From Rheinheimera sp. A13L (lineage in GTDB: Bacteria; Pseudomonadota; Gammaproteobacteria; Enterobacterales; Alteromonadaceae), in NCBI RefSeq assembly GCF_000217935.1, contig NZ_AFHI01000014.1:1-64000 (forward strand): 64,000 nucleotides of DNA, given 5' to 3'. Positions 38,208 to 64,000 of the stretch are shown in pieces. Each line of letters begins with the position of its first letter. Position 1 is the first letter of the stretch. The notes under the pieces were generated by a model. That model searched no databases, was not told where the DNA came from, and was given only the letters and a program-made list of their open reading frames with translations. The position numbers were made by a program, and so were the translations under genes.

Positions 38208-38222
38208 ATAAAAAAAACGGCC
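38208..38222 (+). other. Left half of interrupted rimO terminator
   Basis: ATAAAAAAAACGGCC, 36 bases after the rimO stop. Its complement GGCCGTTTTTTTAT is found 7.3 kb away at 45527-45540. Together they would form a perfect GC-tipped, A/T-tailed bidirectional terminator; alone neither folds. Confidence 0.6.
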
Positions 38223-38230
38223 TTCAGTTA

Positions 38231-38343
38231 TATACAGTAACCTAAAGTGTGTATAACGTGTACAAAGGCAGAGAAATCTGCCTTTTTCTTGTCAAATATT
38301 TATCTCAGATATACAGTGGTTTCAATGTATGACATGTACAAAG
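38231..38343. repeat. Paired imperfect direct repeats at GMT left end
   Basis: Two copies of a ~35-base unit, each starting ATACAGT and ending TGTACAAAG (38231-38267 and 38310-38343), spaced 79 bases apart. This is the arrangement of arm-type recombinase-binding sites. Confidence 0.55.
38264..38287 (+). terminator. Intrinsic terminator at GMT left end
   Basis: AAAGGCAGA (38264-38272), loop GAAA, TCTGCCTTT (38277-38285), then T residues. It blocks transcription entering from rimO and lies between the two direct repeats. Confidence 0.88.
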
Positions 38344-38353
38344 AAAGCATAAC

Positions 38354-39811
38354 TTGGCGTCAGTAAAAGTCAGAGCAACGATCGTAGAAGACAACACAGG
38401 CATCAAAAGCCAGCTCCCTATTTTGCTCACAGAGCAAGGAGAGTTGAGTGTAGTAACTGATTACTTGCTTATATTAGAGGCTGACGGTGTGAGTAACTCT
38501 GTCATGAATGGTTTTCTTCAAGCTGTTTCCTTGTTGTTGGATTATATGGAAGCAAATAGAGGACTGTTTGAAGATCCGAAGTTGCTCTTTCAGACCTTTT
38601 CTAAGCGTTTATATACAGGAACGATTGGCGAGGATGGGATTGACCCTTCTGGTTTGTATTGGGTTCCAAGTTCAACCAGTAACGTCAATAAGCATATTCA
38701 TCGACTGACGGCATTCACCGATTGGCTGGCAGACAAGCAAGGCACTGCGCCGATGAATCCATTGCGTGATGCTACCCCGCATGAGAAACGATTAAATTAC
38801 GCCGCATGGTTTCGGAAAAACCAGAATGATTTTCTGGGTCATATCGCAGATAAAACCATCAACAAAACAATCCGTAAGGCGCGAACCATCAAAGGCCGCA
38901 CGCCGCTCACTAAAACCGAAGATGACGCTATCGCTTTTCCTGAAAAACATTGGGAAGATTTTTATCTGAATGGCATTGGTGGTGCGAAAGATCCGCGAGT
39001 GGCACTCAGGGATAAGCTAATACTGCTACTCATGCACGGTGGTGGGTTACGTGAAAGTGAGGCATTAACGCTTTGGGTGACAGATGTATTTGAAGATCCC
39101 TATACTGCAGACAACGCTGTTGTTCGAATTTACAACGAAATCAATGGCAAAGCCCCTAATGGTTGGCGCGGCCGTTCTGGTCCCTCCAACAGAGAGGCAT
39201 ATTTAAAAGAGCAGTATGCTCGCATACCACGCCAACGTATGAAAGGCACTGCTTATCTTGGTTGGAAGAACCGAGTAGTTGATCATAAAGATAACTACAT
39301 ACAAGTTCAGTGGTTTCCAACCGACTATAGCAAAGTGTTTATGTCGCTTTGGAAAAATTATCAAAAGTACCGCGCCAGTATCGACTGTCACCATCCTTAT
39401 GCGTTTATTTCTTTTCATCACAGCGCCATAGGTAAGCCTTACACGATATCCGCTTTCCATGACAACTACGCCAATGGCTTAAAGCGCATAGGCTTAGAGC
39501 CGCAAAAAGCGGAAGGTCTAGATCCTCACGGGCATCGACATAATTACGGCAGACGATTAGAGCGTTCAGGGCTGAATCCTTTAGTCATCCGCCGTTGTAT
39601 GCACCACAAATCACTAGAGTCTCAAGTTCCCTATACGGGCAAAGGACAACAAGAAATCTCTGATGAACTGACCAAAGCCACACTGCAATTGGCAAACCCT
39701 GAATCGAAAGCCAAAGCCCTTGACTGGAAAACGCTTGTAGAAGATGGCTTTGATGATATCGACCCACAAGGTTACTTCACTGGCAAGCATCCAAAATTGA
39801 GAGGCAAATAA
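38354..39811 (+). CDS. gmtY: GMT tyrosine recombinase GmtY
   Basis: A 485-residue tyrosine recombinase, first gene of the trio. The catalytic set is visible: arginine in GGGLRESEALTLW, HxxR-like GHRHNYGRRLERSG, histidine in RRCMHHKSLE and the likely nucleophile tyrosine in VPYTGKG. The start is a TTG with only a weak AGAAAG site; no better start is seen. Its stop overlaps the next ATG by one base (TAATG). With GmtZ it should catalyse integration and excision of the element. Confidence 0.85.
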   Translation: MASVKVRATIVEDNTGIKSQLPILLTEQGELSVVTDYLLILEADGVSNSVMNGFLQAVSLLLDYMEANRGLFEDPKLLFQTFSKRLYTGTIGEDGIDPSGLYWVPSSTSNVNKHIHRLTAFTDWLADKQGTAPMNPLRDATPHEKRLNYAAWFRKNQNDFLGHIADKTINKTIRKARTIKGRTPLTKTEDDAIAFPEKHWEDFYLNGIGGAKDPRVALRDKLILLLMHGGGLRESEALTLWVTDVFEDPYTADNAVVRIYNEINGKAPNGWRGRSGPSNREAYLKEQYARIPRQRMKGTAYLGWKNRVVDHKDNYIQVQWFPTDYSKVFMSLWKNYQKYRASIDCHHPYAFISFHHSAIGKPYTISAFHDNYANGLKRIGLEPQKAEGLDPHGHRHNYGRRLERSGLNPLVIRRCMHHKSLESQVPYTGKGQQEISDELTKATLQLANPESKAKALDWKTLVEDGFDDIDPQGYFTGKHPKLRGK

Positions 39812-42462
39812 TGGCAAAAAAACAAGATGGACGTTCATCAGATTTAACTTTCTCTTGGATGCTCACCACACTTGGAGTCGAGTGGCAGCAATGGCAGGAA
39901 CTAGCAGCAGAGTGGATGGCGATACAAACTAACGGTATTGATGAAAAACAGCAGGCTTTATCACGTTTTTTTGAATCATATCTTTTTGAATACGCATCTT
40001 ACGCAGTCGATTTACCGCTATTTTTTAAAGGTTACAAAGGGCATCTTTGCTCTAGCAAAGAGTTAGAGAAAGTTACTCGGATAAAAGTCAATAGCTCCAA
40101 AAAAATTCAAAAATGCGTCAATTACTCGACTAGTTTAATTGATTTTGTTATTAAAAAGGCCTTCTCCGAAGAAGATGATCACGACAACCTTGTCCCGCTA
40201 GTTCAAAACCCACTAAGTAAAATATCACTACAAGATGGCTTAACCGAGACCGTCCGTATTCCCTTGCCATATCGCTACATTCAGGGCTTGCGCCAAATCT
40301 TATGCCCGCTTCCTGATAAAATCGAACTCAACGTCATAGGAAAAGAACTCAAGCAAGGTGAAGCCTTGCTTCCTGCTTATCACTACCGTCATTTTAAACA
40401 CTGGATGTGGGCTCAGCGGCAGCCAGGGGGCGACTGGTTTTACGTTGAGCCAGAGCTGATTGATAAATCTGACCCTGACTGCGTGTGGCGCACCAAACAA
40501 GTGAACCGCAACGTTGACGGCGAAGGGATGAAGAAAATTACCCTTCATCAAATCTGGTCTCCTACGAAAGCGATGGTGATTTTCATGAAACTTCATCTGC
40601 CACTTCGCACTTATCAGGTGCGTATGTTGGACTGTGGTGAAGCAGATACATGGCGCTACGAGCAAGGACAGTGGAAGTTTAACGACAAGCATGATTTTGT
40701 GCTTGGAAGTGAAAAGCGCCCGTTCAGAAAGGGGGTCTTTCGCCGCATCCACGACACCATGACAGGGCTGTCTTCAACAGGTCTTTACATCAACACTAAC
40801 AAGACCGCCGACCAAAACAAAGATGAACTAGAGCAGGGATATGTCATTCCTTGGCAGAACGAGGAAGTGCTTTACTGGCTAGAAAAGCTGCGTAACTGGC
40901 AAGAAAAGTACAATCCGATTACAAAACCCACCGACTGCACCACACTGCTTGTAAAGCACATTGGTAAGCAAAAATCCAACAAACAGCTAGAAAACATGGG
41001 CGAAATTGCCTTTCTGTTTCGTGATGCTTCAGCAAAAGGCGAAGACAGATATAAGCCAATTTCAGGCAATTCAAACTTAGCGCTTTTCTGGTATCAACTG
41101 TTACTTGAATTGGAAAACCAGCTGGCAGAACGAGGTGACACACTGGAGAACGGCGATCGTTTGAAACTGGTTACAGATTATCCAGAAGGTGCAGGACAAA
41201 GTGTTAAGGTTGCCACGCTCTTTCCATTACATAGCTTGCGTGTATCGCTGATTACAGCGTACACGATGGATACACAATTGCCACTGCCTGTCATATCTAA
41301 ACTATTGGCTGGTCATACGCGCCTGTTGATGACGATTTACTACAACAAAATAACACCTTCGGTCATGGCAGAAAAGATGGGCGAAGCACATGATGCGCTA
41401 GATGCAAAATCGAAACAATCGGTGCGTAACTTCCTCAAAGATGCCTCGATGGAGCAAATACAATGCAAGATGGTGTATCACAACCAAGACAGCATCGAGT
41501 CGGTACTGGTCAATCGCAATCCCATTGGTTGGGAGGAGCGTTCATATGGCTTGTGCTTGGTCGGTGGCAACACAGTGAAATCTGATGAGGTCAGTACCCT
41601 TGGTGGGTGCTGGAATGGTGGTGAGTTGATTAGAGACGGAAATGTGGCCCATAATCGCATCTACGACAGCGTGCCACATGGCCCCGAAAACTGCATTCGT
41701 TGCCGTTGGTTTATCACCGAAGCTCGCTACCTACCTGCACTCAATGCCCAGTTCAATCAACTGAGCTACAAAGCGCATCAAGCCGCCAATCTATCAGTTG
41801 AAATTGAAGGTGAACTGGAAGCCCTGAAAGACGAACAGTTCTTCTGTGAAGAACAAGACGGGCCGTTTATCAAGCAAAATGAATTGCAGGCACTACAGCG
41901 CCGTTATGAAAAGCAACAAGTTGAAGCCGATGAATACGCCAAAGACTGGGTAGCCTGCTTTGAACTTATTAACAAAATCATTCGTGTCGAGGAAACAAGG
42001 GGTGAAAGCGACACCAAAGATAAGCTGATTGCGGTTGGCTCCGAGAAAGATGTCATTCATGCCTTGAAGTTTGTCGAGACCGATTCGGAATTGCTGCATC
42101 TATCCCTTCTTTGTGAAGATGCAGAATTTTATCCCGACTTACAGGACGAATTGCGTAAAACTCCTGCCATTCAAAAACGATCCATACAACTTAGTCGCGT
42201 ACTAATAAAAAAAGGCTTTGAGCCGATTTTCATGGAGATGGACGATAAGCAACAGCTTATTGCGGCAAACGCCATGATGCGTCAAATGGCAAAAATCGCT
42301 GACCCAGATGATAAATTGGAAGGATATCGAAAAGTTGCCAACTACATTGAGGCGGGTGCATACCTTGAAGATAACAACCTGCTTCGTGCTGGCATGACAG
42401 CAATCACAGACAAGGCGCTATACCTCGGAAACCTTATTCAACCAGCGCTATTGGAGGACTAA
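39811..42462 (+). CDS. gmtZ: GMT integrase GmtZ
   Basis: An 883-residue protein, second gene of the trio. The C-terminal half has tyrosine-recombinase features: HSLRVSLITAYTM (HxxR box) and LLAGHTRLLMTIYYNK, where a histidine and paired tyrosines sit at the usual spacing. The N-terminal part and the last 250 residues, which contain a CxxCRW pair in GPENCIRCRW, are specific to this family. Both ends show TAATG one-base overlaps, so the three genes are translationally coupled. Confidence 0.85.
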   Translation: MAKKQDGRSSDLTFSWMLTTLGVEWQQWQELAAEWMAIQTNGIDEKQQALSRFFESYLFEYASYAVDLPLFFKGYKGHLCSSKELEKVTRIKVNSSKKIQKCVNYSTSLIDFVIKKAFSEEDDHDNLVPLVQNPLSKISLQDGLTETVRIPLPYRYIQGLRQILCPLPDKIELNVIGKELKQGEALLPAYHYRHFKHWMWAQRQPGGDWFYVEPELIDKSDPDCVWRTKQVNRNVDGEGMKKITLHQIWSPTKAMVIFMKLHLPLRTYQVRMLDCGEADTWRYEQGQWKFNDKHDFVLGSEKRPFRKGVFRRIHDTMTGLSSTGLYINTNKTADQNKDELEQGYVIPWQNEEVLYWLEKLRNWQEKYNPITKPTDCTTLLVKHIGKQKSNKQLENMGEIAFLFRDASAKGEDRYKPISGNSNLALFWYQLLLELENQLAERGDTLENGDRLKLVTDYPEGAGQSVKVATLFPLHSLRVSLITAYTMDTQLPLPVISKLLAGHTRLLMTIYYNKITPSVMAEKMGEAHDALDAKSKQSVRNFLKDASMEQIQCKMVYHNQDSIESVLVNRNPIGWEERSYGLCLVGGNTVKSDEVSTLGGCWNGGELIRDGNVAHNRIYDSVPHGPENCIRCRWFITEARYLPALNAQFNQLSYKAHQAANLSVEIEGELEALKDEQFFCEEQDGPFIKQNELQALQRRYEKQQVEADEYAKDWVACFELINKIIRVEETRGESDTKDKLIAVGSEKDVIHALKFVETDSELLHLSLLCEDAEFYPDLQDELRKTPAIQKRSIQLSRVLIKKGFEPIFMEMDDKQQLIAANAMMRQMAKIADPDDKLEGYRKVANYIEAGAYLEDNNLLRAGMTAITDKALYLGNLIQPALLED

Positions 42463-43139
42463 TGGATATCAATATCGACGTCATACTGGCTGATTTAAAA
42501 GACGGCAAAGTGCCTAGAACTCAGCAAAATCTAGATAAACTCAACGATATCCTAAAAACCTATGCTGAATCAGGTCAGCGCGATTTCTCCATCACGCAAA
42601 TGGGGCGTGTATCGGCAGCAGAAGGTGGCCCTGGCTATGAAGCGTTACGGGCAACAAGAAACGGCCACTATCGAACCCTAATTGAAGCGTGGGCACAAAA
42701 GTGTAAAACCAACACAAAAAAGCCGTTATCGCCAACCTCTCGCTCTAAGTCTGTCCCGCAGGATTACAAGCTCCTGGAGCGTATTCCAGACCCTGCGGTA
42801 CGCGCTTTGTTTGGTCAAATAATTGCTGAGCGCAATCGTTACCGTAATGAGGTCAACCTACTCAAACAACATGCGAACATCACCATCGATAAGCGTCCTG
42901 TACGTCAGTTTGACGCGAGCGCAGAGCCAAGCATTGAATTTTTGCCCTCGTTATCCGGCATATTGACGGAATCCGAGAAGAAAGCATTAGCCTACGCCAT
43001 TTCTGATGAGTGCATGGAAAAGAATGATTGGCAAACCACACAGGCAGGACAAGTCAAAGATATGGAATATAACGCAGAAGTCTTTCCACGAGGCTTTGTC
43101 ACAGGACTTCGTAAGGTATTAGGTGAGGTAGACAGCTAA
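42462..43139 (+). CDS. gmtX: GMT accessory protein GmtX
   Basis: A 225-residue cytoplasmic protein, third gene of the trio. It has a TQMGRVSAAEGGPGYEALRATRNGHYRTLIEAW stretch that looks like a helix-turn-helix-type DNA-binding region, then a coiled-coil segment (IIAERNRYRNEVNLLKQ). Identity comes from size, order and coupling after gmtY and gmtZ. Its exact role in transposition is not established. Confidence 0.8.
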   Translation: MDINIDVILADLKDGKVPRTQQNLDKLNDILKTYAESGQRDFSITQMGRVSAAEGGPGYEALRATRNGHYRTLIEAWAQKCKTNTKKPLSPTSRSKSVPQDYKLLERIPDPAVRALFGQIIAERNRYRNEVNLLKQHANITIDKRPVRQFDASAEPSIEFLPSLSGILTESEKKALAYAISDECMEKNDWQTTQAGQVKDMEYNAEVFPRGFVTGLRKVLGEVDS

Positions 43140-43225
43140 TGGCAAGCTGTCAAAAAGAGGCGCAACAAAAGCTCGAAGCATTTGAAGTATGGCAAGCAAC
43201 CCAGTCTGACGATGACTTTAAGTAA
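43139..43225 (+). CDS. 28-codon ORF coupled to gmtX
   Basis: Its ATG overlaps the gmtX stop by one base (TAATG), exactly as in the other two junctions of the trio. It begins MASCQKEAQQKLEAFEVWQ and ends SDDDFK, mostly charged and helical. It may be a small fourth protein of the element or the remnant of a longer gene. Only the coupling argues for it. Confidence 0.35.
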   Translation: MASCQKEAQQKLEAFEVWQATQSDDDFK

Positions 43226-43360
43226 ATTATATTTAGAGGCCAGCTAAATCGCATGGAAGTGATAAAAGGTATTAGCTGCGGCAAGTCTGCAATTAACCAC
43301 AACTCTGCTTTCAGAAAGGCGATCACTACACAACATCATGCAGGGAAAGATATTTACATA

Positions 43361-44593
43361 TTATATAATATTGTAAGCCCTTAACTTGATAGTAGTATCA
43401 ACAAGGATTACACCTTGTACTTTGTGGTTCTTGTGCTTGTGTTTAACATACGCATTATTAGTGTATTTAGCTTCGAGTTTCGTATTCTCAAGTAAGGTTT
43501 GTACGTACTCCTCGTAGCTATTTATTTTCCTGGCTGTGGAGTTTTCAGCACTAAAATAGTTCAATAGTTTCGTTGTATATTCTTCATTAACTTCGTAAAG
43601 GCTATTGTTTCGAGTAAGAACAAGATACACTCTGAACGTAGACGAGAGCTCATTAAATACTGATTCTGAGACCTGCAGAACAATTGCTTTGTTTAGCTTA
43701 TTATCTAATTTAAACTTGTCCATATAGCAGTTCAAAGCTAAGGGATTGTGCGTAAAAGAAATGATTTTGAGAAAGTCATCATCAGATATACCTAAGTCTC
43801 GGTAAATCAGATAGGTAACCAACATTCTTAACTTCCAGTATAATTCACTTACGTAATCTGTAGTGAGTTTCTCTATTTCACCATGAGCAGCCCTATCTCT
43901 GACTTCCTTAATTGGATGTAGGTCACTATTTGACAGAAATACCTCTGTAACATGCTTACCTATGTGATTTAGGTACTTCTTAACTTTTTGAATAAAGGTC
44001 GCATTAGAATTATTAGGGAAGACTTTTCTAAGCACGTCAACGTCTCTTAGATTAGCCAGAATTCCTTTCGAAAAAGTTTTGACCAGATCTTCATCGGCAG
44101 CTATCAAGGCTGAGATTTTATGTGTTAGCTCGGTATACTCACCTTGAGCAAGCTTGGTATCAAGGTCCAGTTCCTCTACTTTGTGGCTGCAATACTTGTC
44201 GAGAATCGCGGCATAGAGCATGGTTTCATACTCTAAAACGCCATTGAAATTGTATAACGGTATTGTTCGTGACCAGATATTCTCAAATTCAAACGTGTTT
44301 CTTTCAAAGTATGACTCACAAATTTTTACGAAGTGTTCTCTCAAGTGTTTGACCAGCATGAAGCTGTTCGGATGTGATAGGTCATGTACAGAAGTGTCTT
44401 TTACTGTTGGAATGTATAACGTCCCTCTATTTTCACCATCTGACACTTCGATTTTTGACACTTTAATTGGAAAACCGGTAATCCAAGTGAAAAGGTTTTG
44501 CGATTTATAAAGGTAATTTTCTATTTCGTTGAATGTTAGGGCTTTTTCAAATTCAAAAAACCAGAGCAATGGAGCTTGTGAACGTAAAACCAT
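43361..44593 (-). CDS. ApeA-like HEPN protein, C-terminal part
   Basis: 410 codons encoding the HEPN half of what looks like one ApeA-type antiphage protein. The RNase motif R-x4-H is present as RDRAAH (43883-43900), in the context PIKEVRDRAAHGE that is typical of Apea-like HEPN domains. The first residues (WFFEFEKALTFNEIENYLYK) resemble the middle of the family rather than a true N-terminus, and no good ribosome-binding site precedes the ATG. The upstream ORF overlaps it by 41 bases in another frame. If intact, it would act as an abortive-infection RNase. Family assignment from pattern, moderately sure. Confidence 0.6.
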   Translation of the reverse strand: MVLRSQAPLLWFFEFEKALTFNEIENYLYKSQNLFTWITGFPIKVSKIEVSDGENRGTLYIPTVKDTSVHDLSHPNSFMLVKHLREHFVKICESYFERNTFEFENIWSRTIPLYNFNGVLEYETMLYAAILDKYCSHKVEELDLDTKLAQGEYTELTHKISALIAADEDLVKTFSKGILANLRDVDVLRKVFPNNSNATFIQKVKKYLNHIGKHVTEVFLSNSDLHPIKEVRDRAAHGEIEKLTTDYVSELYWKLRMLVTYLIYRDLGISDDDFLKIISFTHNPLALNCYMDKFKLDNKLNKAIVLQVSESVFNELSSTFRVYLVLTRNNSLYEVNEEYTTKLLNYFSAENSTARKINSYEEYVQTLLENTKLEAKYTNNAYVKHKHKNHKVQGVILVDTTIKLRAYNII

Positions 44594-45095
44594 CTTTGGC
44601 TGGAGTGTTAGCTAATCGATAGCATTGATGCAATCCAATTTTGATGACTTGGTCTTCTTTCAATACAGTAGCTTCCAATGGTTCTATAGTAACATTTCCA
44701 GTCAGGTCGCCATTTTGTTCTAGGCTTCTAGAAATTTCATTGTTGAAATACGCCGCTAGTTCAGGGAACGTGAAATATACTTTTTTTAGCTTGGTTATTT
44801 CTGCTTTCCCGGAATATACATATCGAAACAACCTTGATGATTGAGTTTCAGAATTAATAGCACCAGATAAAAGATACTTTGGGGTTAGCTGTTCTGCAAA
44901 ATCCTCTACCTGAATAGCATCATCATTATGTCCATAAAAATAAAAATGCTTACTGACATGAGATAACAAAGGAATCTGACCGTACTTAATATTAAGTTTA
45001 CAGTACTCACCTTCTGTAATTCGAACATTTAATTCTAAGTCTTCAGCTAGTAGTAGCTCCAAAATTTCACCAGATATCCAGCCATACACAGGCAT
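44553..45095 (-). CDS. ApeA-like protein, N-terminal part
   Basis: 180 codons with the look of an ApeA N-terminal sensor domain: an opening GWISG, FRYVYSGKAEITKLKKVYFTFPELAAYFN, and beta-rich segments. It ends prematurely at a TGA just after a T6 run (plus-strand A6 at 44555-44560). Removing one T gives an open frame through both parts of about 577 residues reading SIALVFEFEKALTFNE. This part lies upstream in transcription and carries the true start. It is the only cargo visible in the element. Confidence 0.55.
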   Translation of the reverse strand: MPVYGWISGEILELLLAEDLELNVRITEGEYCKLNIKYGQIPLLSHVSKHFYFYGHNDDAIQVEDFAEQLTPKYLLSGAINSETQSSRLFRYVYSGKAEITKLKKVYFTFPELAAYFNNEISRSLEQNGDLTGNVTIEPLEATVLKEDQVIKIGLHQCYRLANTPAKDGFTFTSSIALVF

Positions 45096-45571
45096 ATATT
45101 ACCGAACTTAGTGTCTTTAGCCATCCATTTCCGAGAGTAACTTTAGTGGGCAACGATTTTTGGGTATCACATTGTAAGTTGGAATACGTATTGTTATCTG
45201 TACTTGTCTAATTTAGAAAAAGTAGGTCAGCGCAGCCGTCCGCTATGACTTATATAACTGGATGATTCCTGATGCTGGTGGGTCAATGAAAGTACAACGG
45301 GTGGTAAGAAGCAATTAATCGTAGTGGTAAATTAGGACGACGATTTGCACTCTAGTTTTTTGACCAAAATCAGCAAGTAACATGATTAGTCATTTAGTAA
45401 TAAAAAAACGTACACACCAATATACATAGTGTGTACGTTTAAACATAAAACCCTAGAGTATGAAAACCTTGGCCATCCACTCACTCACTCGCAAATAGAC
45501 ATGATTTTTACTCTATACTCCAATTTGGCCGTTTTTTTATTTTTTGCTTGGCTTTGGGTTCGCGAAAGCCA
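45096..45571. other. GMT right end, no gene seen
   Basis: 476 bases without a credible ORF: the promoter region of the HEPN gene, then AT-rich sequence with a 12-bp inverted repeat (45406-45440), the inferred right boundary and the right half of the split terminator (45527-45540). Confidence 0.6.
45406..45440. repeat. 12-bp inverted repeat near GMT right end
   Basis: AAACGTACACAC (45406-45417) and GTGTGTACGTTT (45429-45440), perfect, with an 11-base centre. It shares GTGTGTA and TGTAC strings with the left-end repeats, so it is a candidate recombinase site; a terminator is the alternative. Confidence 0.55.
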
Positions 45572-50586: not shown

Positions 50587-53500
50587 TTTCTAAGTTGTCT
50601 GGTCGGCGGTGAACTAGTCAACAATACGGTTTTGGCCGCTGTAGTATTTCTAAGTTGCCTGTTCGGCAGTGAACCAGGGAACTGTTCCGAAACTTCCGGA
50701 TTAACTTTTCTAAGCTGCCTGTTCGGCAGTGAACGCAATATGGCGAGTCGGCCACTGAGTTTGTGCTTTCTAAGCTGCCTGTTCGGCAGTGAACAACGTC
50801 GCCCCGCAGAATGAACGACCCGCTTTTTTCTAAGCTGCCTGTTCGGCAGTGAACGGTGTCTGCTCAGCGATACGACGGTCTATTGTTTTCTAAGCTGCCT
50901 GTTCGGCAGTGAACTCAGGAATTGTGCCTGATAAAGATTCGGCTATTTTCTAAGCTGCCTGTTCGGCAGTGAACGCATGAAACCAACTTAATAGGCGCCA
51001 GAAACATTTCTAAGCTGCCTGTTCGGCAGTGAACGGCTAGTCGTTCCAATCGTGGCGACAATACCATTTCTAAGCTGCCTGTTCGGCAGTGAACTGAAAG
51101 ACCTGATGACCAGTGCCGCTGATTTTTTTCTAAGCTGCCTGTTCGGCAGTGAACGAAGTGATACACGGAAACGCCCTTACGCTTCATTTCTAAGCTGCCT
51201 GTTCGGCAGTGAACTTGTGCTGATTCGACACATACATCAGCTTCAATTTCTAAGCTGCCTGTTCGGCAGTGAACAACTTACCCGCCAGATAGTCTTTCCC
51301 CTTAGGTTTCTAAGCTGCCTGTTCGGCAGTGAACAAGCCGATTACTGTTGTTCACCCTGGCGAAGATTTCTAAGCTGCCTGTTCGGCAGTGAACTTATCG
51401 GCATCATCGGTATATCAGCTGCTTATTTTCTAAGCTGCCTGTTCGGCAGTGAACGAGGTACGGTTAGATCCGGCAATTGTGATTCGTTTCTAAGCTGCCT
51501 GTTCGGCAGTGAACGATTCCGGCACAGGCTTGCCGCACCAGTTGCATTTCTAAGCTGCCTGTTCGGCAGTGAACCGTATAAAAAGCAATTATGTTAGTCA
51601 GTGCCTTTTCTAAGCTGCCTGTTCGGCAGTGAACATGGCCTTGATATTCAGCGCGCTTGCTTTCAATTTCTAAGCTGCCTGTTCGGCAGTGAACTTAAAG
51701 CGTCTCGTAAACCGTCAACGTCAACATTTCTAAGCTGCCTGTTCGGCAGTGAACTTGTCTCAATTGAAAGGCCCGTCACTGATGACTTTCTAAGCTGCCT
51801 GTTCGGCAGTGAACACGGAGTTATTTTCTGTGCTTATGGTCCTACTTTTCTAAGCTGCCTGTTCGGCAGTGAACATATGCCTAACGACTGGTATCGCGCT
51901 CAGGAATTTCTAAGCTGCCTGTTCGGCAGTGAACCAAGTGTTCGGTGCAGAAGTGTTTAAAGTCTTTTTCTAAGCTGCCTGTTCGGCAGTGAACCAATGG
52001 CACTTTCAACAGCCCTGCGCCACTCATTTCTAAGCTGCCTGTTCGGCAGTGAACCCTGACAGCTAAGCGCCCAATTACTTGGGTTTTTTCTAAGCTGCCT
52101 GTTCGGCAGTGAACTTCTAACCAGCCCATCAGCGCCTATGGTTTTTTTCTAAGCTGCCTGTTCGGCAGTGAACGCGGTGTTGTTTCGGGCAGCATGGCAG
52201 CGATATTTCTAAGCTGCCTGTTCGGCAGTGAACGCTGTATGGCTGAGGCCATTAAGGCCAGTGGTTTTCTAAGCTGCCTGTTCGGCAGTGAACGGCTTAT
52301 ATCCTGGGAACGGATTGACGCTGCATTTCTAAGCTGCCTGTTCGGCAGTGAACCCGGAAGCCAGCAAAGACTTTACGAATGTCCGTTTCTAAGCTGCCTG
52401 TTCGGCAGTGAACTAAGCGTGAATTCCGTTAAATGTGTGGCCGTTTTTCTAAGCTGCCTGTTCGGCAGTGAACTTTGAAATTCCACTATCTATTGAAGAT
52501 AGTTTTTTCTAAGCTGCCTGTTCGGCAGTGAACTGAATACTGGCAGCGGCTTTTTCGTCGTTGCTTTTCTAAGCTGCCTGTTCGGCAGTGAACTTAACCA
52601 AACTCTATTGAATGGCACATTCTCTTTTCTAAGCTGCCTGTTCGGCAGTGAACGGCGATATCTTCTATGACCAGGTTAGGTTCGCTTTCTAAGCTGCCTG
52701 TTCGGCAGTGAACATGAAGCTGCCCCAGCTCATTGTTGCTGCACTCTTTCTAAGCTGCCTGTTCGGCAGTGAACATTGTGGCGACTGCAGCCCCTTTTCA
52801 GGTCAATTTCTAAGCTGCCTGTTCGGCAGTGAACTAGTTACTCAAGTTGCCAGCTTTACACCTTCCTTTCTAAGCTGCCTGTTCGGCAGTGAACTTGAAA
52901 AATGAATCTTCGGTATTTGTGATTCTTTTCTAAGCTGCCTGTTCGGCAGTGAACAAATATGGCCCTGTTTTACCGTCTGGCGTGGATTTCTAAGCTGCCT
53001 GTTCGGCAGTGAACAATGGAAAAATGGCAAAGATTGACCAACACCATTTCTAAGCTGCCTGTTCGGCAGTGAACAGTTAAAAAGCCCATGTCGGTTTCAT
53101 CAGCCTTTTCTAAGCTGCCTGTTCGGCAGTGAACTAAAACCGCAGTGAGTTGTCACGGAATAATGATTTCTAAGCTGCCTGTTCGGCAGTGAACAAATGC
53201 AGCAACACAATGACGGCAAAAACACATTTCTAAGCTGCCTGTTCGGCAGTGAACAAAATGAGTTGTTAGCTGTTTAGGAAACCAAAGTTTCTAAGCTGCC
53301 TGTTCGGCAGTGAACGCAAAATCAAAGCCTGTTACAGCATTTAACCTTTTCTAAGCTGCCTGTTCGGCAGTGAACACCTGTTAAACCAGTAGCAATTACA
53401 TTGGTCTTTTCTAAGCTGCCTGTTCGGCAGTGAACGTGGTGAAAGGGGCGCGCCTGGCGGTGACTCATTTCTAAGCTGCCTGTTCGGCAGTGAACTGTAA

Positions 53501-56500
53501 CTAAAAATACGTCATAACCTTTGTGGCTTTCTAAGCTGCCTGTTCGGCAGTGAACTACCATCAAGAGCTCTTACATCGTCAATACTTTTTCTAAGCTGCC
53601 TGTTCGGCAGTGAACCAGATCAACCAAATCACCTGCAGCGCTTTTGTTTTCTAAGCTGCCTGTTCGGCAGTGAACAGGCCCGTGTGGGCTACACACTGGC
53701 AATATTTTTTCTAAGCTGCCTGTTCGGCAGTGAACTTCTGAGGCATCAACTCGTTCACCATGGCGCTTTTCTAAGCTGCCTGTTCGGCAGTGAACTAGTA
53801 AAACGTGACATTGGTTTTTTCCTTCTGTTTCTAAGCTGCCTGTTCGGCAGTGAACTCATGCTCAGCGCATTCGCTTGAATGGTGGGTTTTCTAAGCTGCC
53901 TGTTCGGCAGTGAACATTTTTTATCTCAACCAGCTGACCTTCGAGCCTTTCTAAGCTGCCTGTTCGGCAGTGAACGCCAATGGCTTCGCGTATGCCCGTT
54001 CTGTCCATTTCTAAGCTGCCTGTTCGGCAGTGAACTATTTTCAGTTTATTGGTTTGGTGTTTGTTATTTTCTAAGCTGCCTGTTCGGCAGTGAACAGGGA
54101 CATTAGAGTAAACTCCTGAATAGATAGTTTCTAAGCTGCCTGTTCGGCAGTGAACAACGGCGCTATAACTTCGTTTAAATCCTGTATTTTCTAAGCTGCC
54201 TGTTCGGCAGTGAACACCAGAAATTAAGCACAGAGCCTATCCGATACTTTCTAAGCTGCCTGTTCGGCAGTGAACACTATTCGGTTAGAGATGAGTTCCC
54301 TAATCTATTTCTAAGCTGCCTGTTCGGCAGTGAACTCTGTGCTAGCAAACGTGCCGTCACCGTTGTATTTCTAAGCTGCCTGTTCGGCAGTGAACGATAC
54401 GTTATTTGATCGCATGGGCGGTAAATTTTTCTAAGCTGCCTGTTCGGCAGTGAACCGCAATAAAAGCGGATTTCGTAAACATACTATTTTCTAAGCTGCC
54501 TGTTCGGCAGTGAACAATACAGCGCCGTAATCTTCAAAGCGGCGACATTTCTAAGCTGCCTGTTCGGCAGTGAACCAATACCGACTACATGCAGTTGTGC
54601 GCTGGCTTTTCTAAGCTGCCTGTTCGGCAGTGAACTTTGAGTTGCCACCAGCGGCGTGGTAGCTTCTCTTTCTAAGCTGCCTGTTCGGCAGTGAACTGTT
54701 TGTGTGACAGCGGTCAGCACCGGTATTGTTTCTAAGCTGCCTGTTCGGCAGTGAACAGCGAAGATAATTAATTTAGGAGTTTGAGTATTTTCTAAGCTGC
54801 CTGTTCGGCAGTGAACTAAATGCTTGAGCCATAATTATTTCTCCAACGTTTCTAAGCTGCCTGTTCGGCAGTGAACCAATTCATATGTGCGATAAAGATT
54901 TTGTCTATTTTCTAAGCTGCCTGTTCGGCAGTGAACATCCTACCACTGTCAGCTTTGTATCTGGCGTATTTCTAAGCTGCCTGTTCGGCAGTGAACGCTA
55001 TCGAGCCGAGCCACAAGATTGTCCGCACTTTCTAAGCTGCCTGTTCGGCAGTGAACAGACTCGGCCAACGTGAACCAAATCACCAGTATTTCTAAGCTGC
55101 CTGTTCGGCAGTGAACATTTTGCGAACCAAGAGATGGTGTTCAGGTTCTTTCTAAGCTGCCTGTTCGGCAGTGAACTGCTGGCATCAACATTCCTGCAAG
55201 CCTGACTTTTTCTAAGCTGCCTGTTCGGCAGTGAACGTGGACTGCACAAACGATCAGCAATACAGCGGTTTCTAAGCTGCCTGTTCGGCAGTGAACTAGA
55301 TGTTATTGAGCTTTCATCAATGGGCGAATTTCTAAGCTGCCTGTTCGGCAGTGAACTGTACCTGATGCTAAACGCTATAGCATCAGGCTTTCTAAGCTGC
55401 CTGTTCGGCAGTGAACGGTATTTGATTTTTTAATTCGTAGATCTAGGTTTTCTAAGCTGCCTGTTCGGCAGTGAACAAGGATTGCTTGGTTGATTCATGT
55501 GGTTCTCCTTTCTAAGCTGCCTGTTCGGCAGTGAACTTTCAGGCTTAGTTAGCTGCATAGCGTCAGAATTTCTAAGCTGCCTGTTCGGCAGTGAACTTGT
55601 CAGATATGGACGCATTAGGATTGTCACTTTTCTAAGCTGCCTGTTCGGCAGTGAACCTATTCAGGCTAAGTAAAATCTTATTCGTGGATTTCTAAGCTGC
55701 CTGTTCGGCAGTGAACGCCTATTGTGGCGCTTATTCTTTGGATATGGTTTTCTAAGCTGCCTGTTCGGCAGTGAACTGATTGTCGGGCCTTCTGGTATCG
55801 TCTGCTTATTTCTAAGCTGCCTGTTCGGCAGTGAACTTCCGCCCGGCAGTACAGTTGCAGGAACTGGTTTTCTAAGCTGCCTGTTCGGCAGTGAACTGCT
55901 GGCATCAACATTCCTGCAAGCCTGACTTTTTCTAAGCTGCCTGTTCGGCAGTGAACTTTCAGGCTTAGTTAGCTGCATAGCGTCAGAATTTCTAAGCTGC
56001 CTGTTCGGCAGTGAACATTAAAGCCGAGGGTAAAGTTTGGCAGCGCATTTTCTAAGCTGCCTGTTCGGCAGTGAACAAATAGCGGCGAATGCTTCACCAA
56101 CGCTCATTTTTTCTAAGCTGCCTGTTCGGCAGTGAACTATGGGATTTGGTATGGCAGTTGGTCGATTGCTTTCTAAGCTGCCTGTTCGGCAGTGAACTTC
56201 GCTTGCTCCTAGCTTTGCGGCTCTGTATTTTTCTAAGCTGCCTGTTCGGCAGTGAACTTAAGCGTAAATTACTGGGTGTTGGTTCCCCTTTTCTAAGCTG
56301 CCTGTTCGGCAGTGAACAAGATGCTGAAGAAATAAAGTCGTTAATGTCTTTTCTAAGCTGCCTGTTCGGCAGTGAACTATTGCACCAGTTCGGCATATTC
56401 AGGAAAGCTTTTCTAAGCTGCCTGTTCGGCAGTGAACTCGCTGTTGGTTTTCTGGTGGCAGTTGCTGCATTTCTAAGCTGCCTGTTCGGCAGTGAACAGA

Positions 56501-59500
56501 AACAGCAATGAAGCTTTGCGTTCTGTTTGTTTCTAAGCTGCCTGTTCGGCAGTGAACCGCATGAGTGCGCCAGAGTTTACCGCAGCCGGTTTCTAAGCTG
56601 CCTGTTCGGCAGTGAACGTCACGTAGGCGTTAAAGTCTATTTACTTGGTTTTCTAAGCTGCCTGTTCGGCAGTGAACGGGTGACGCTGATCACGCAGTTC
56701 GCCTATCCCTTTCTAAGCTGCCTGTTCGGCAGTGAACGTTACTGTGATAGTGCGGACTTCCACTGGCTTTTTCTAAGCTGCCTGTTCGGCAGTGAACATG
56801 ACCAAGCCGGAGATAGACCGAAAGTTGGCTTTCTAAGCTGCCTGTTCGGCAGTGAACGGTGACGTTTTCGCACGCCCACCAGTCCAGTTTTTCTAAGCTG
56901 CCTGTTCGGCAGTGAACTACAGTTCAGACGCTGGCCACCAAATGAGCCATTTCTAAGCTGCCTGTTCGGCAGTGAACCTGCAGTGCATTCTCAGACTGGT
57001 GCTGTTATTTTTCTAAGCTGCCTGTTCGGCAGTGAACCGGTAAATACGCCGGCAGATTTCTTCCATCTTTTTCTAAGCTGCCTGTTCGGCAGTGAACGTG
57101 ACGCTAGAAACCTTGTGCAAAACGTTGGATTTCTAAGCTGCCTGTTCGGCAGTGAACCAGGTGCATCCGGAGTTTATAAACATCGGTCATTTCTAAGCTG
57201 CCTGTTCGGCAGTGAACGGTCTAATTCATCACTGTAGTACATCAAACTATTTCTAAGCTGCCTGTTCGGCAGTGAACCAGGGCTAACCTCTGCACTAGGC
57301 CCACAATCGTTTCTAAGCTGCCTGTTCGGCAGTGAACTGTCAGTTGATGGTGATGCTGTTGCGCTGACTTTTCTAAGCTGCCTGTTCGGCAGTGAACTGT
57401 GCATTCATCAAGAAGGTCTTGAGCAGACATTTCTAAGCTGCCTGTTCGGCAGTGAACAGGCGCTGCAACAAAGTTACGCCAATGATTGATTTCTAAGCTG
57501 CCTGTTCGGCAGTGAACATCGATTCTAAACGAGTGGCGTCTAAGTCATATTTCTAAGCTGCCTGTTCGGCAGTGAACGCTATTCTGCTTTATTCTTTCGC
57601 GTAAGGGATTTTCTAAGCTGCCTGTTCGGCAGTGAACGATCCAACAAAGCTAGGCGGTGTTCGCCATCATTTCTAAGCTGCCTGTTCGGCAGTGAACGAT
57701 ACGTTATTTGATCGCATGGGCGGTAAATTTTTCTAAGCTGCCTGTTCGGCAGTGAACCGTCCAAGCACGTTGGCAAGCACAGTGATGTTTTTCTAAGCTG
57801 CCTGTTCGGCAGTGAACGGTGGGTGGCGCACTAAGCTCATTTGCTGACTTTTCTAAGCTGCCTGTTCGGCAGTGAACGGACTCATCAACAAAGGGCTGGA
57901 CTTCTACATTTTCTAAGCTGCCTGTTCGGCAGTGAACAAACCAAGACACCATAATCAACGGCATTCAGTTTTCTAAGCTGCCTGTTCGGCAGTGAACTCT
58001 TTTTCTGGATCTTCGCCTTCTTCGTCCGTTTTCTAAGCTGCCTGTTCGGCAGTGAACAGATAGTGTCGCTCAGTCGTTATTATCCCGTTTTTCTAAGCTG
58101 CCTGTTCGGCAGTGAACCCAAAGAACACAGGGAGGGCCAGAAGGAGCTTTTTCTAAGCTGCCTGTTCGGCAGTGAACCCATCCTCCAAATAAGACACGGG
58201 CGCTTGTGCTTTCTAAGCTGCCTGTTCGGCAGTGAACTCTGGAATAAGCACAAGGCCGTTCAAGATATGTTTCTAAGCTGCCTGTTCGGCAGTGAACCGG
58301 TGCGTCTATGGTTGACTGGTTTGGTCGCTTTTCTAAGCTGCCTGTTCGGCAGTGAACTACTTGTCGGCACTCAGACAGGCGTTAAGGCTTTTCTAAGCTG
58401 CCTGTTCGGCAGTGAACGAAGGCTCAACGCGCCGCCGAATCACCGAAGCTTTCTAAGCTGCCTGTTCGGCAGTGAACTAACGGCCGTAGACTTTGCCTTT
58501 TCTTGCTCTTTTCTAAGCTGCCTGTTCGGCAGTGAACGCGTGGATAACACAAGGGGATATACGTTGCTGTTTCTAAGCTGCCTGTTCGGCAGTGAACCTA
58601 AAAACGAAGCTGTAGCAGCTATGGAGCGTTTTCTAAGCTGCCTGTTCGGCAGTGAACCTGTATTCCCTGACGTTATCCCGCTTTGGTTTTTCTAAGCTGC
58701 CTGTTCGGCAGTGAACACCACAATAACGAATATGACATTAAATGCGTTTTTCTAAGCTGCCTGTTCGGCAGTGAACTAACAACAAGGCGCACGTTTATTG
58801 CAAGGACATTTCTAAGCTGCCTGTTCGGCAGTGAACTTGTCAAACGGCAAAACCGCATAAGGCATAGATTTCTAAGCTGCCTGTTCGGCAGTGAACGTTT
58901 AGTGACTCATTGGTCACGCAGTTGCCGTTTTCTAAGCTGCCTGTTCGGCAGTGAACATAAAAGGCCGAGAAGAAGCTAACAGTATCACTTTCTAAGCTGC
59001 CTGTTCGGCAGTGAACTAAAGCGTTTTGATTGCCTACACCTGTTTCTTTTTCTAAGCTGCCTGTTCGGCAGTGAACTACTGCTTTGGCAGCAAATCGGCC
59101 AACTCTCTTTTCTAAGCTGCCTGTTCGGCAGTGAACTTGCAAAGACAGGTGCAGGACTCGACGATGTATTTCTAAGCTGCCTGTTCGGCAGTGAACACGT
59201 TGAAAGCGGCAAGCGCGAGCTTTCCCTATTTCTAAGCTGCCTGTTCGGCAGTGAACCTGGTGTTGAGGTTTTTTATTTTGTTGATGATTTTCTAAGCTGC
59301 CTGTTCGGCAGTGAACGTTTTGGAGCAGAGTATAAAATTTACAGCACATTTCTAAGCTGCCTGTTCGGCAGTGAACTTTAGGCGCTGCAAGTTCAATTTG
59401 CTTTGCTTTTTCTAAGCTGCCTGTTCGGCAGTGAACACGGTTCTGGTTGGCAAAGTCGCGGGCCGTCTTTTCTAAGCTGCCTGTTCGGCAGTGAACCAGG

Positions 59501-60456
59501 CCGCGATTGATTACCGCAATGCGGTTAATTTCTAAGCTGCCTGTTCGGCAGTGAACAGGGCGGAGCACAAGCAATCAAGAATGCCAGCTTTCTAAGCTGC
59601 CTGTTCGGCAGTGAACACCCGTTTGCGTTTGATGTGGTGTCAGCTGTTTTTCTAAGCTGCCTGTTCGGCAGTGAACACTACCGCATATGCCTCAACTGAT
59701 GAAGTTGTTTTCTAAGCTGCCTGTTCGGCAGTGAACACAACCTGAACGGCGCTCAGCTCATGTTCACTTTTCTAAGCTGCCTGTTCGGCAGTGAACCTGA
59801 TGAAGTTGTGGTTCGTTTGTTATCTTCTTTTCTAAGCTGCCTGTTCGGCAGTGAACGGTATTTCACTTTCTGGCGTTTCAGTGATTAATTTCTAAGCTGC
59901 CTGTTCGGCAGTGAACTCAAATCAGGTATACGACTATGCGCTAATCATTTTCTAAGCTGCCTGTTCGGCAGTGAACACAAGCAACCAGCATAAACGCTGC
60001 AAAATCACTTTCTAAGCTGCCTGTTCGGCAGTGAACGAGCAATGGTAGATACTGCCATACCAGTTAATTTTCTAAGCTGCCTGTTCGGCAGTGAACGCAA
60101 TGACAGTCGTGTGCATCAAGTTGATTTATTTCTAAGCTGCCTGTTCGGCAGTGAACGCGGAGATATGAACGCCACGGTAAACGCTAAATTTCTAAGCTGC
60201 CTGTTCGGCAGTGAACTTTCAGGCTTAGTTAGTTGCATAGGGTCAGAATTTCTAAGCTGCCTGTTCGGCAGTGAACGTCATTTCCCGTCTTTCATCACAA
60301 TATTTGCATTTCTAAGCTGCCTGTTCGGCAGTGAACGATAGCACACAAAGAAAATCCAGCGTTATGCTTTTCTAAGCTGCCTGTTCGGCAGTGAACGTTA
60401 ATTACTGGATCAGATATGGTTGCGTTTGTTTCTAAGCTGCCTGTTCGGCAGTGAAC
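50587..60456 (-). CRISPR. Type I-F CRISPR array, 165 repeats, 164 spacers
   Basis: A 28-base repeat recurs every 60 bases from 50587 to 60456. In crRNA orientation (minus strand) it begins GTTCACTGCCG, has the stem CTGCC-GAACA-GGCAG, and ends CTTAGAAA, a canonical I-F/Csy4 repeat. Spacers are 32 bases except six: 31 at 52115 and 58658, and 33 at 52714, 53255, 54636 and 56077. Repeats read as identical except the two most distal (50587, four changes; 50647, one change); a further degenerate copy may lie at 50527. Distal decay places the leader at the right, next to cas6f. Two spacers occur twice as a set (55177/55897 and 55537/55957), another at 54396/57698. Confidence 0.98.
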
Positions 60457-60585: not shown

Positions 60586-61155
60586 TTAGAACCAGGGTAC
60601 CGTTACTTTTTCAGATAACCGGCTTAAACCATAGGAGTTAAAACCGCCCTTTGTGGGATGATCAACTATCGGTCCTTGCTCGATGAACACTTTCATTTGC
60701 TGTTTATTGCCACGGCTGGTCAATTGTATGAATGGCAACTTCAGCAATCTTGACGACTGCTCACTAATTTGTACTACGGCTTCTTCTTGCGTTAACCAAC
60801 CTTTGCTCACCGATCGCTGTTGTTTGTTATACGCACTTTTCAACTGCCGCCTGGCAAAATAGCGCTGCTTAGCATCCGTTGGTACAGGAAGTACTGCGCT
60901 GCATTGGCTGTAATCTCTGAGTCCTTTCAGCCAATTTTCAGCCATCAACTTTTCCAGCATAATTGCGCTACCATGAATTCGTAATTTAGTACCAAGGTTT
61001 TTGCCAGCCTGAGCATATCCTGGAAAACTAACCCCTACTTTGCCCATGGTTACCTGCCCCAACACCGCATGCAATTTCGAGCACAGGTTATTCATCAAAA
61101 AGCTGGCATCGGCTTCTAAGTCTGGCAATACCGTTATTTCGATATACCTATCCAT
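60586..61155 (-). CDS. cas6f: Cas6f (Csy4) crRNA endoribonuclease
   Basis: A 189-residue type I-F repeat-processing nuclease. It cuts the pre-crRNA on the 3' side of each repeat hairpin and stays bound to the product. Catalytic H29 is present (LCSKLHAVLG), at the same number as in Pseudomonas Csy4, with S147 in QLTSRG and Y175 in GFNSYGLS as likely partners. The arginine-rich helix that grips the hairpin is visible as YFARRQLKSAY and KQQRSVSKGW. It is the last gene of the cas operon, 12 bases after csy3, and is followed by a terminator and the array leader. Confidence 0.97.
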   Translation of the reverse strand: MDRYIEITVLPDLEADASFLMNNLCSKLHAVLGQVTMGKVGVSFPGYAQAGKNLGTKLRIHGSAIMLEKLMAENWLKGLRDYSQCSAVLPVPTDAKQRYFARRQLKSAYNKQQRSVSKGWLTQEEAVVQISEQSSRLLKLPFIQLTSRGNKQQMKVFIEQGPIVDHPTKGGFNSYGLSRLSEKVTVPWF

Positions 61156-61167
61156 AATCAGCTCCTC

Positions 61168-62172
61168 TTAACCGGCTTCGCCAAACACGCCACCACGAAT
61201 AAACATGGCCATAATGTAGTGCTGTTGCTCCAACGCTGGTGTTTTACCTTTCAAAACCCAGCCATCCAGTAGTTTATAAAAATCCATACTGTCTTTTGGC
61301 TGGCGATAAGCCTTACCACGGTTGGTTACTGAGCCGTAGGGTTCTACTGCTATAGCACCTACCTCGGCGGTTTCAGGGTGCCATGTGTCGATAGTTCGCA
61401 GCGCATTGCCAATCTTTTGCGAGTGCATGGCTGCAACACCATCTAACTGGTATAAAAACTTACTTTTGTCACCTTTACCGCCGCCCATGACCAACTCCTG
61501 AGACGGATAAACCGCCTGGCCAGCCCCGAGTTTCACAAAGGCATGTACCTTAATCAGCGCGAAGCTCTCTCCTGTCAGCCCCAGTTTAATCACTTGAGCT
61601 AATTTTGCGACATCGCCAGTCGGTTCAGCAAAACGGTGTAAATCAAACTGCTGACTATCAAATATCCAGAGCTCTTTACCGTGCGTTACCTGAACCTCTA
61701 CTGCTTCAGCTCCCACCCGGTTACGCCACAAGAAGCGGCCGTTGGCAATATTGGCAGCATAGCGATTAGCTAACTCAGTAAATTGGGTTTGCTCGGCATA
61801 GCCATTGATAATAGTGGCCAGTGCCTGCTGGTATTCAGGATCATTACAGGTGGAAGGTGTTGCTAAATCACCAATGATTCTTAAAGTAAAGCTAACTCTA
61901 AGGGTATCGTGCTCAAAAGGCAGCGCTGCATTATCAACAGTCTGTAAATTTGCCTTTTGCACCTCGGCATCAACCTTTGCAGGATCGCTTGCCAAAGCCG
62001 ACTTCAACCTGTTGGAAATAGTGCCGCGCACCGCTTTTTCTTTAACAGTCACTGGCAAAAAGCTTTTTGCATTACCACGTTCGTCCCAGTTACCACTGGC
62101 CATAATAGCGTCTGAATTTGCCAGTTTGGCTTCAAAAGCCAGTACCGATGCAGTTTTTAAAGTAGTAGTCAT
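61168..62172 (-). CDS. csy3: Cas7f (Csy3) Cascade backbone
   Basis: A 334-residue Cas7-type protein, six copies of which form the crRNA-binding spine of the type I-F Cascade. It opens [20 protein letters not shown] and carries [45 protein letters not shown] and [18 protein letters not shown], all typical Csy3 segments. It lies 14 bases after csy2. Confidence 0.97.
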
Positions 62173-62186
62173 AGCTAAGTTCCTTT

Positions 62187-63176
62187 TCAGAAGTAAGTAA
62201 GTTCGGTTTCTGTGATTTCAGCTAAAGCGGCGTCCTGCTCCGGATGCAGCTTTAATGTGTTTTGTGTAGTGTTCGTTGTACATAGATACCATGGCCCCTG
62301 CTGCCGATAACGCCAGATAACATCACGTACATCGGGGACTCGGTGCGGGCTTAACCACTGGCCAACACCATAAGCTGATTCGACAAAGCAAAAGGGATAC
62401 TGCGGATCTCGGCTATTAGCGACAGCGCCTGCATCATGCAGTGCCGAAATCGCTTTATAGCCTGTAGTTATAGGCACTAAGTATCCTTTATCCGGTTTAG
62501 GTACTCTTTCCCACATCGCCGGGCAAGGCTCTGTTGCAGTATCAACATTATCGTCTACAACAGCGCGATAACTTAACGCAGAAAAATCCAGCCAGGCATC
62601 CAGCATAGTGGCATTTGGCTGAGCTGCGGTTAACTGCTGATAATGCCGCTTTAACAGTTCTGAGCGATCAGTTAATACAAAACCCGGCAGCACTTTGCGC
62701 AGTAACTTACGGCTTAACGCCTGCTCGTCATCATCGCTGTAAAGACTAACGCCTTTCAGATTAATAACCTGGCCACCTGCCAGCTTTTGTCGCTGAGCTA
62801 ACAAAGTAAGTGTTTCAATAATTTGCTGTTGCTGATTGCTACTAAATGCTTTATTGGATTCCAGAATCAGTGAAACGGTAAGGTGCATCCGTCCCTCTTC
62901 AACAATAGGTGCCGTATTACCCTCTTTGGTTAATGGGTTACGAGTTAAGGCAAAAACATAATCGCCCCAACCACCGGGCTGATAAGCCTGCACCTGATGT
63001 TGATGACACACCACGGCACAGCCGGTTAGTTCAACACCAAACTCTTGCTGTAACTTACGCGAAAGCGCGTGGGTATAGCCAAGGAAATGGGTAATGGCCG
63101 GAAAACCATAAGTAAAACCGGCAATGCAATTGGCATTTTGGACTTTGATATGTTCTAGCAAAATATAATTGCTCAT
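62187..63176 (-). CDS. csy2: Cas5f (Csy2)
   Basis: A 329-residue type I-F Cas5-like protein that caps the 5' end of the crRNA with Csy1 and contributes to PAM recognition. The start [31 protein letters not shown] is characteristic. Its ATG overlaps the csy1 stop by four bases (ATGA). Confidence 0.96.
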
Positions 63177-64000
63177 ACTGCAGCCTCCGCTTGTGCCTTA
63201 CCTGCAGAAAATACTATTGTGCCAAGCTCATAATCACGTAGTCGGGGCGACAACAACTTTGCCCAATGCTGGTGTTGCACAGTACCAAACACTAACCCAT
63301 CGTTTTTCAATGCATTATTAAGTTTATTATTTAACCAACCAGCAAAGGCCAGACAAATATCTTGCTGCCAGTTGCTGTTTGCCCTTTTTTGCTGAAACTG
63401 CAGATCCTCGCACCAGGTGTCCAGCCATAATTGTTCAGCCAGTTTTAGCTTGCAATTCTGCGAGCTCCAACCAGCGTGCTCGCTTAAGCCCTGCACTTCA
63501 GCCGCATAATTCAGCAATCCATCAATAAGATCATTTACATAAGCGGCTATATTACGGCGGATCTCTAACGTGCTGTCGCGCCCTTTTATGCTTAGTAAAT
63601 AACGCTGCAACTCTTGTAAATCACGCCATACCCGGCGGTTAAACTCACGGCCAAAAAATATCGATTGTTCATTGAACGGTGGTTTTAACGTCGATTGCCA
63701 GGATGGCGGTGCACAGTTGAGTAAGTAGGTTTTACCGCCCCGCTGACTATTCAATTGAGAAATATTTTGTGGCTTAGAGCCACCAAAGCTTTTCATTGCA
63801 GTATCTATAAAACGAATATCTGGCTTGTCATGGAATTTACCAGCCTTACGCGCCTCTCGAATGGCTTTTGGGTCATCACCAAACCGTACGGCAGTTATTT
63901 TGCCGTTGAACTGGTGAGCAAAAGATGAAGCAAAAACAGGGCTAAGCAGGTGATACTGACCATCGACTACAGGAAAATACAGTTGTTTGGCTAAGGTATG
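63173..64000 (-). CDS. csy1: Cas8f (Csy1), C-terminal part
   Basis: The 3' 276 codons of the large subunit of the type I-F surveillance complex; the gene runs off the right edge. In frame, the sequence from the edge reads FPVVDGQYHLLSPVFASSFAHQ, then MKSFGGSKPQNISQLNSQRGG, a hallmark of Csy1. The ATG at 63796 is internal and not a start. Csy1 with Csy2 reads the CC PAM. cas1 and cas2-3 should lie further upstream, outside the window. Confidence 0.95.
   Translation of the reverse strand, partial: HTLAKQLYFPVVDGQYHLLSPVFASSFAHQFNGKITAVRFGDDPKAIREARKAGKFHDKPDIRFIDTAMKSFGGSKPQNISQLNSQRGGKTYLLNCAPPSWQSTLKPPFNEQSIFFGREFNRRVWRDLQELQRYLLSIKGRDSTLEIRRNIAAYVNDLIDGLLNYAAEVQGLSEHAGWSSQNCKLKLAEQLWLDTWCEDLQFQQKRANSNWQQDICLAFAGWLNNKLNNALKNDGLVFGTVQHQHWAKLLSPRLRDYELGTIVFSAGKAQAEAAV

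Follow-up and report, generated by a model that had tools for sequence, protein, structure and literature searches.

Why does an apparent ApeA-like defence gene of Rheinheimera sp. A13L occupy two reading frames? We examined this question in a 64,000-nucleotide stretch of the genome (the window). The reading that we favour, with a probability of about 0.72, is that an ApeA-family defence gene, the cargo of a gamma-mobile-trio element, was recently inactivated by a frameshift inside its ApeA_NTD1 domain.

The split gene

The locus consists of two overlapping open reading frames (ORFs) on the minus strand. The upstream piece (44553..45095; 180 aa) holds most of the ApeA_NTD1 region, and the downstream piece (43361..44593; 410 aa) continues with the last part of that region, the HEPN domain and a C-terminal extension. 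They share 41 bases and lie one base apart in frame at a T6 tract (A6 on the plus strand; 44555..44560), where the two frames meet. The upstream frame is closed by TGA within the tract region, its end reading TTT TGA. Neither piece has a further stop or frame shift besides the lesion at the tract. The HEPN motif RDRAAH (R-x4-H) is present on the minus strand at 43883..43900. A preliminary description of the window had reported both ORFs, their one-base offset at this tract and an intact HEPN motif, and all of these are confirmed.

In neither length nor frequency does the tract stand out. Within the split gene there are two A/T runs of at least six bases, against a mean of 2.66 in 500 triplet shuffles, and the window overall contains 32 A6 and 43 T6 tracts. 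No Shine-Dalgarno-like motif was found within 25 bases of the ATG at 44593, at the ATG at 45095 or before the tract. Since the ATG at 45095 also goes without one, the absence at 44593 carries little weight. A promoter scan returned fewer sites than in shuffled sequence and none preceding 45095.

Comparison with an uninterrupted relative

Our searches found one close relative. In Marinomonas alcarazii (locus L002, 7479-9197) the corresponding protein is encoded by one ORF of 572 aa and is about 70% identical to the window pieces, so that what is a single uninterrupted frame there is two frames in the window. Both pieces align to it without gaps: upstream residues 9-179 pair with L002 residues 4-174 (72.5% identity), and downstream residues 14-410 with L002 residues 176-572 (69.0% identity). 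Both window frames can supply residue 175 of L002, which falls on the joint. When the L002 protein is aligned to the window by tblastn, query residues 18-175 and 175-572 fall on two frames that meet at 44556-44557. One query is placed across both frames, and the two pieces are, beyond chance, parts of one gene. The preliminary description had proposed that they join into a single reading of about 577 residues, which the ungapped end-to-end alignment bears out. It had also named homologues in the form of two separate genes as evidence that would count against this proposal; the one close relative checked carries one continuous ORF, and an origin as two genes was rejected on this ground. At the position of the joint, L002 has no A/T run and its frame is uninterrupted.

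The dN/dS ratio against L002 is 0.17 for the upstream piece (171 codons) and 0.24 for the downstream piece (397 codons), each an average over two sequences that cannot date the break. Differences from L002 are commonest at third codon positions in both pieces, and both have been under past purifying constraint. The L002 ORF has TTG as its first usable codon, and an ATG shortly before it is in another frame (L002 7440-7500). The start of the Marinomonas protein is therefore uncertain, and its gene may also be damaged at the 5' end.

Family assignment

Family membership was assessed with the Pfam models ApeA_NTD1 (PF18862, cut-off 25.5 bits) and HEPN_Apea (PF18739, cut-off 24.4 bits). With the two window frames read across, that is, joined with an X at the joint, ApeA_NTD1 scores 33.9 bits over residues 93-236. 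This match spans the joint, and the break falls inside the domain. HEPN_Apea scores 17.5 bits on the same reading, below its cut-off. The downstream piece alone falls below both cut-offs (ApeA_NTD1 18.0 bits, HEPN_Apea 18.1 bits), and no Pfam family matches the upstream piece on its own. The L002 protein passes both, with 32.0 bits for ApeA_NTD1 and, narrowly, 25.1 bits for HEPN_Apea.

We also built a custom ApeA profile from 12 sequences representing 11 different genes (L024 and L061 are the same gene of genome G235), omitting the three of 15 family proteins that have at most 380 aa (L054, L059 and L060). It scores 58.6 bits on the L002 protein, 41.2 bits on the downstream piece and -1.7 bits, no match, on the upstream piece. 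The profile aligns RDRAAH with the family's RNkiaH, in agreement with the catalytic motif R-x4-6-H. PADLOC returned no ApeA-named match for the window pieces or L002, and its library may hold no ApeA model. A sequence comparison of L002 with PDB chains, at E up to 1, gave no match. These comparisons support the view that the window gene is a divergent, long ApeA, its HEPN score lying under the cut-off. The ApeA-like label of the preliminary description is supported, with the reservation that the HEPN_Apea model does not reach its cut-off on the window protein.

Mobile element and insertion site

Three adjacent plus-strand genes mark the mobile element, each scoring above its NCBIfam cut-off: gmtY, the tyrosine recombinase (38354..39811; NF040693, 555.5 bits, cut-off 340), gmtZ, the integrase (39811..42462; NF047926, 1020.5 bits, cut-off 600) and gmtX, the gamma-mobile-trio protein (42462..43139; NF040692, 254.9 bits, cut-off 40). 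The element as inserted spans about 7.3 kb (38227..45526, ends good to about 10 bases), as judged from empty sites in relatives of the same genus. Its ORFs of at least 80 aa, besides the gmt genes, are the two ApeA-like pieces and one ORF antisense to them.

The element occupies the loop of a terminator common to rimO and a GGDEF gene and parts the arms of the hairpin (site 38218-45538), which in the window stand at about 38218 and 45527. The flanking GGDEF gene occurs in 10 other genomes of the genus, with the rimO side nearby in all 10. In each of the nine relatives whose junction was read (L027-L035), the terminator hairpin is present and the element absent; in one of them, L029, the distance to the next gene is greater by about 0.6 kb. 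Because relatives show an empty junction and the arms in the window are about 7.3 kb apart, the ApeA-like gene is cargo of the gamma-mobile-trio element.

Four of the 22 genomes of the genus, that of A13L included, have a gmtY above the cut-off. A contig of G198 with another gmtY (L046) begins with sequence resembling the left end of the element. Other copies adjoin what we take to be a greB-like gene (L048, L049), and one further copy (L047) adjoins a tRNA-like sequence, judged by eye. A strong terminator-like hairpin of 14 pairs lies on the minus strand near the right end of the element (45406-45440). No RNA family reached its gathering score between 38000 and 46000.

The window also contains a large type I-F CRISPR array (50647-60456) with 164 repeats (at most three mismatches) and 163 spacers, 160 of them distinct. 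It is adjoined by cas genes (60586-64000) for Cas6/Csy4, Csy3, Csy2 and Csy1, of which Csy1 is truncated at the window end. Compared with the window and the fetched loci, the spacers matched in stretches of 16-21 bases only, which we took as chance.

Distribution and other broken copies

Relatives of the gene are few in the collections searched. The downstream piece found one relative, L002, among genome contigs, in a search that detects close relatives only. Among plasmids it found one distant record (23% identity), which the L002 protein also retrieves, and among phages none. In the genome samples, which overlap, it matched two of 196 genomes of the family and three of 394 of the order, own genome included in each count, and its own genome alone among 369 of the class. 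The L002 protein had no match among viral contigs, again in a search that detects close relatives only. Among the 22 genomes of the genus it matched that of A13L and none of the other 21, as expected for mobile cargo.

An ApeA_NTD1 search of 295 genomes of the order gave a match in 13 and missed the window's own gene. Two of these 13 genomes have an ApeA gene that looks broken. In G240 (L054, minus strand) there is an in-frame TGA inside ApeA_NTD1. In G464 (L059 1423-2957) the first half of the gene is in one frame and the second in another, and an in-frame TAA comes later. The change of frame falls somewhere in L059 2055-2118, close to where ApeA_NTD1 ends, and there is an A6 run (2053-2058) at the edge of this stretch. 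The locus of G413 (L060) includes only part of the gene, which we judged neither broken nor whole. With a broken copy in two of 13 other matching genomes, loss of ApeA genes is not rare and is nothing special.

Origin of the frame break

What the break does can be proposed from the domain layout. The intact product would have about 577 residues, comprising an ApeA_NTD1 sensor region, the HEPN ribonuclease domain and the C-terminal extension, and would presumably be an infection-triggered RNase whose N-terminal domain would detect infection and in response release the HEPN RNase. In the frame as it stands, translation would end after 180 residues and yield an N-terminal domain without an attached HEPN. 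The HEPN half, which has its own ATG, no Shine-Dalgarno-like site and little of the N-terminal domain, is probably either unmade or unregulated. The system in this copy is most likely off, because the chain would stop inside the N-terminal domain. Since dN/dS is low in both pieces and there is no other lesion, the break looks like a recent loss; the ratios suggest little room for long decay. Most likely, then, the locus is a cargo gene of a known kind that was broken in an ordinary way.

Alternatively, the strain itself could carry an unbroken gene, and the frame break could be a homopolymer artefact of sequencing or assembly. This is possible but doubtful. The assembly is a draft of 71 contigs, and there is a single lesion, exactly at a six-base tract, in an otherwise constrained gene. 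Against it stands a control in which 1019 ORFs, taken from 1.32 Mb of a single-contig genome of the genus (G208), were searched for in 588,681 bases of the A13L assembly; matches of at most 65% identity and those covering less than half of the query without a neighbouring piece were left out. This gave 86 orthologous ORFs, whose aligned spans hold 154 tracts of at least six bases. None of these ORFs was split, and tblastn of the same kind does reveal the split in the ApeA-like gene. In-frame stops appeared in two of the 86, located before likely start codons. A first control pass over one contig had likewise found none of 29 ORFs split, with two flagged stops that precede the window's ORF starts. 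Because no control ORF was split, the error rate at such tracts in this assembly is low; with thousands of them in a genome of this size, a single error may still have occurred.

It is very unlikely that the gene is split and working, with the two ORFs made as cooperating proteins and the second translated by re-initiation at 44593. The 41-base overlap and the ATG of the second ORF would suit such an arrangement, but the break falls inside one domain, the relative L002 has one gene, and the ATG at 44593 is without a Shine-Dalgarno-like motif, a weak point given that 45095 has none either.

We give hardly any credence to a switch, in which slippage at the tract (phase variation) or programmed +1 frameshifting sets the RNase on or off. 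The upstream frame does end in TTT TGA, the kind of site that is able to slip and that can be likened to prfB, and the gene of G464 also shifts frame close to where ApeA_NTD1 ends, in a stretch with an A6 run at its edge. A second break near the same part of the protein gives the switch weak support; the later TAA of that copy is as expected in decay. Phase variation was rejected on a tract of only six bases, of a kind so numerous in the window. Programmed frameshifting was rejected on three counts: no Shine-Dalgarno-like stimulator precedes the tract, the tract is not conserved in the one relative, and the 81 nt after it form no stem-loop, 183 of 200 shuffled versions folding at least as stably. 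A switch is unlikely because the tract is not above chance, is absent in L002 and has neither stimulator nor stem-loop. Equally slight are the prospects of a long ApeA subfamily, in this case on a gamma-mobile-trio element, whose HEPN half is toggled by short-tract slippage, so that a costly RNase would be silent in most cells and active in a few. Such a switch, if true, would matter more than a broken gene, but the evidence points against it.

The preliminary description had left four options for the break. Decay by recent mutation fits best and sequencing error is disfavoured; the phase-variable switch and the programmed frameshift find no support in the tract statistics, in L002, in the Shine-Dalgarno scan or in the folding.

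Comparison with known systems

Gamma-Mobile-Trio elements are defined by GmtX, GmtY and GmtZ (Mahata et al. 2024, as cited in PMC11888443 and PMC12715929). The window element resembles them in having all three hallmark proteins and a defence-type cargo. It differs in being small (7.3 kb), in carrying one cargo gene, which is broken, and in its site within a terminator loop.

The closest known system for the cargo is ApeA, a single-gene HEPN anti-phage system. A 2013 census includes the ApeA HEPN together with ApeA-NTD1, a mostly beta domain that is fused to it (PMC3710099). ApeA is placed among the HEPN RNases of immune pathways (PMC13405049), and it is named as one of the anti-phage systems from Gao et al. 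2020 (PMC7699616). The title of a 2026 preprint cited in PMC13405049 states that ApeA is activated by deoxydinucleotides. The window gene, as a joined reading, shares with ApeA the order of ApeA_NTD1 and then an R-x4-H HEPN domain in one gene. The window gene and L002, at 572-577 residues, are longer than most members compared; nine of the ten ORFs above 380 aa among L050-L062 have 448-505 residues, and the tenth, L061, has 605. The tail after R-x4-H has 173 residues in the window gene and L002, against 45-70 in eight shorter members (L050, L052, L053, L055-L058 and L062). A long tail after the motif is also seen in two relatives of 605 aa, L003 and L024. The window copy further differs from ApeA in being broken and in its HEPN score under the cut-off. 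With this locus, the known systems gain a long-form ApeA on a mobile element whose boundaries are defined, and a further case in which the defence gene is lost and the carrier element is complete.
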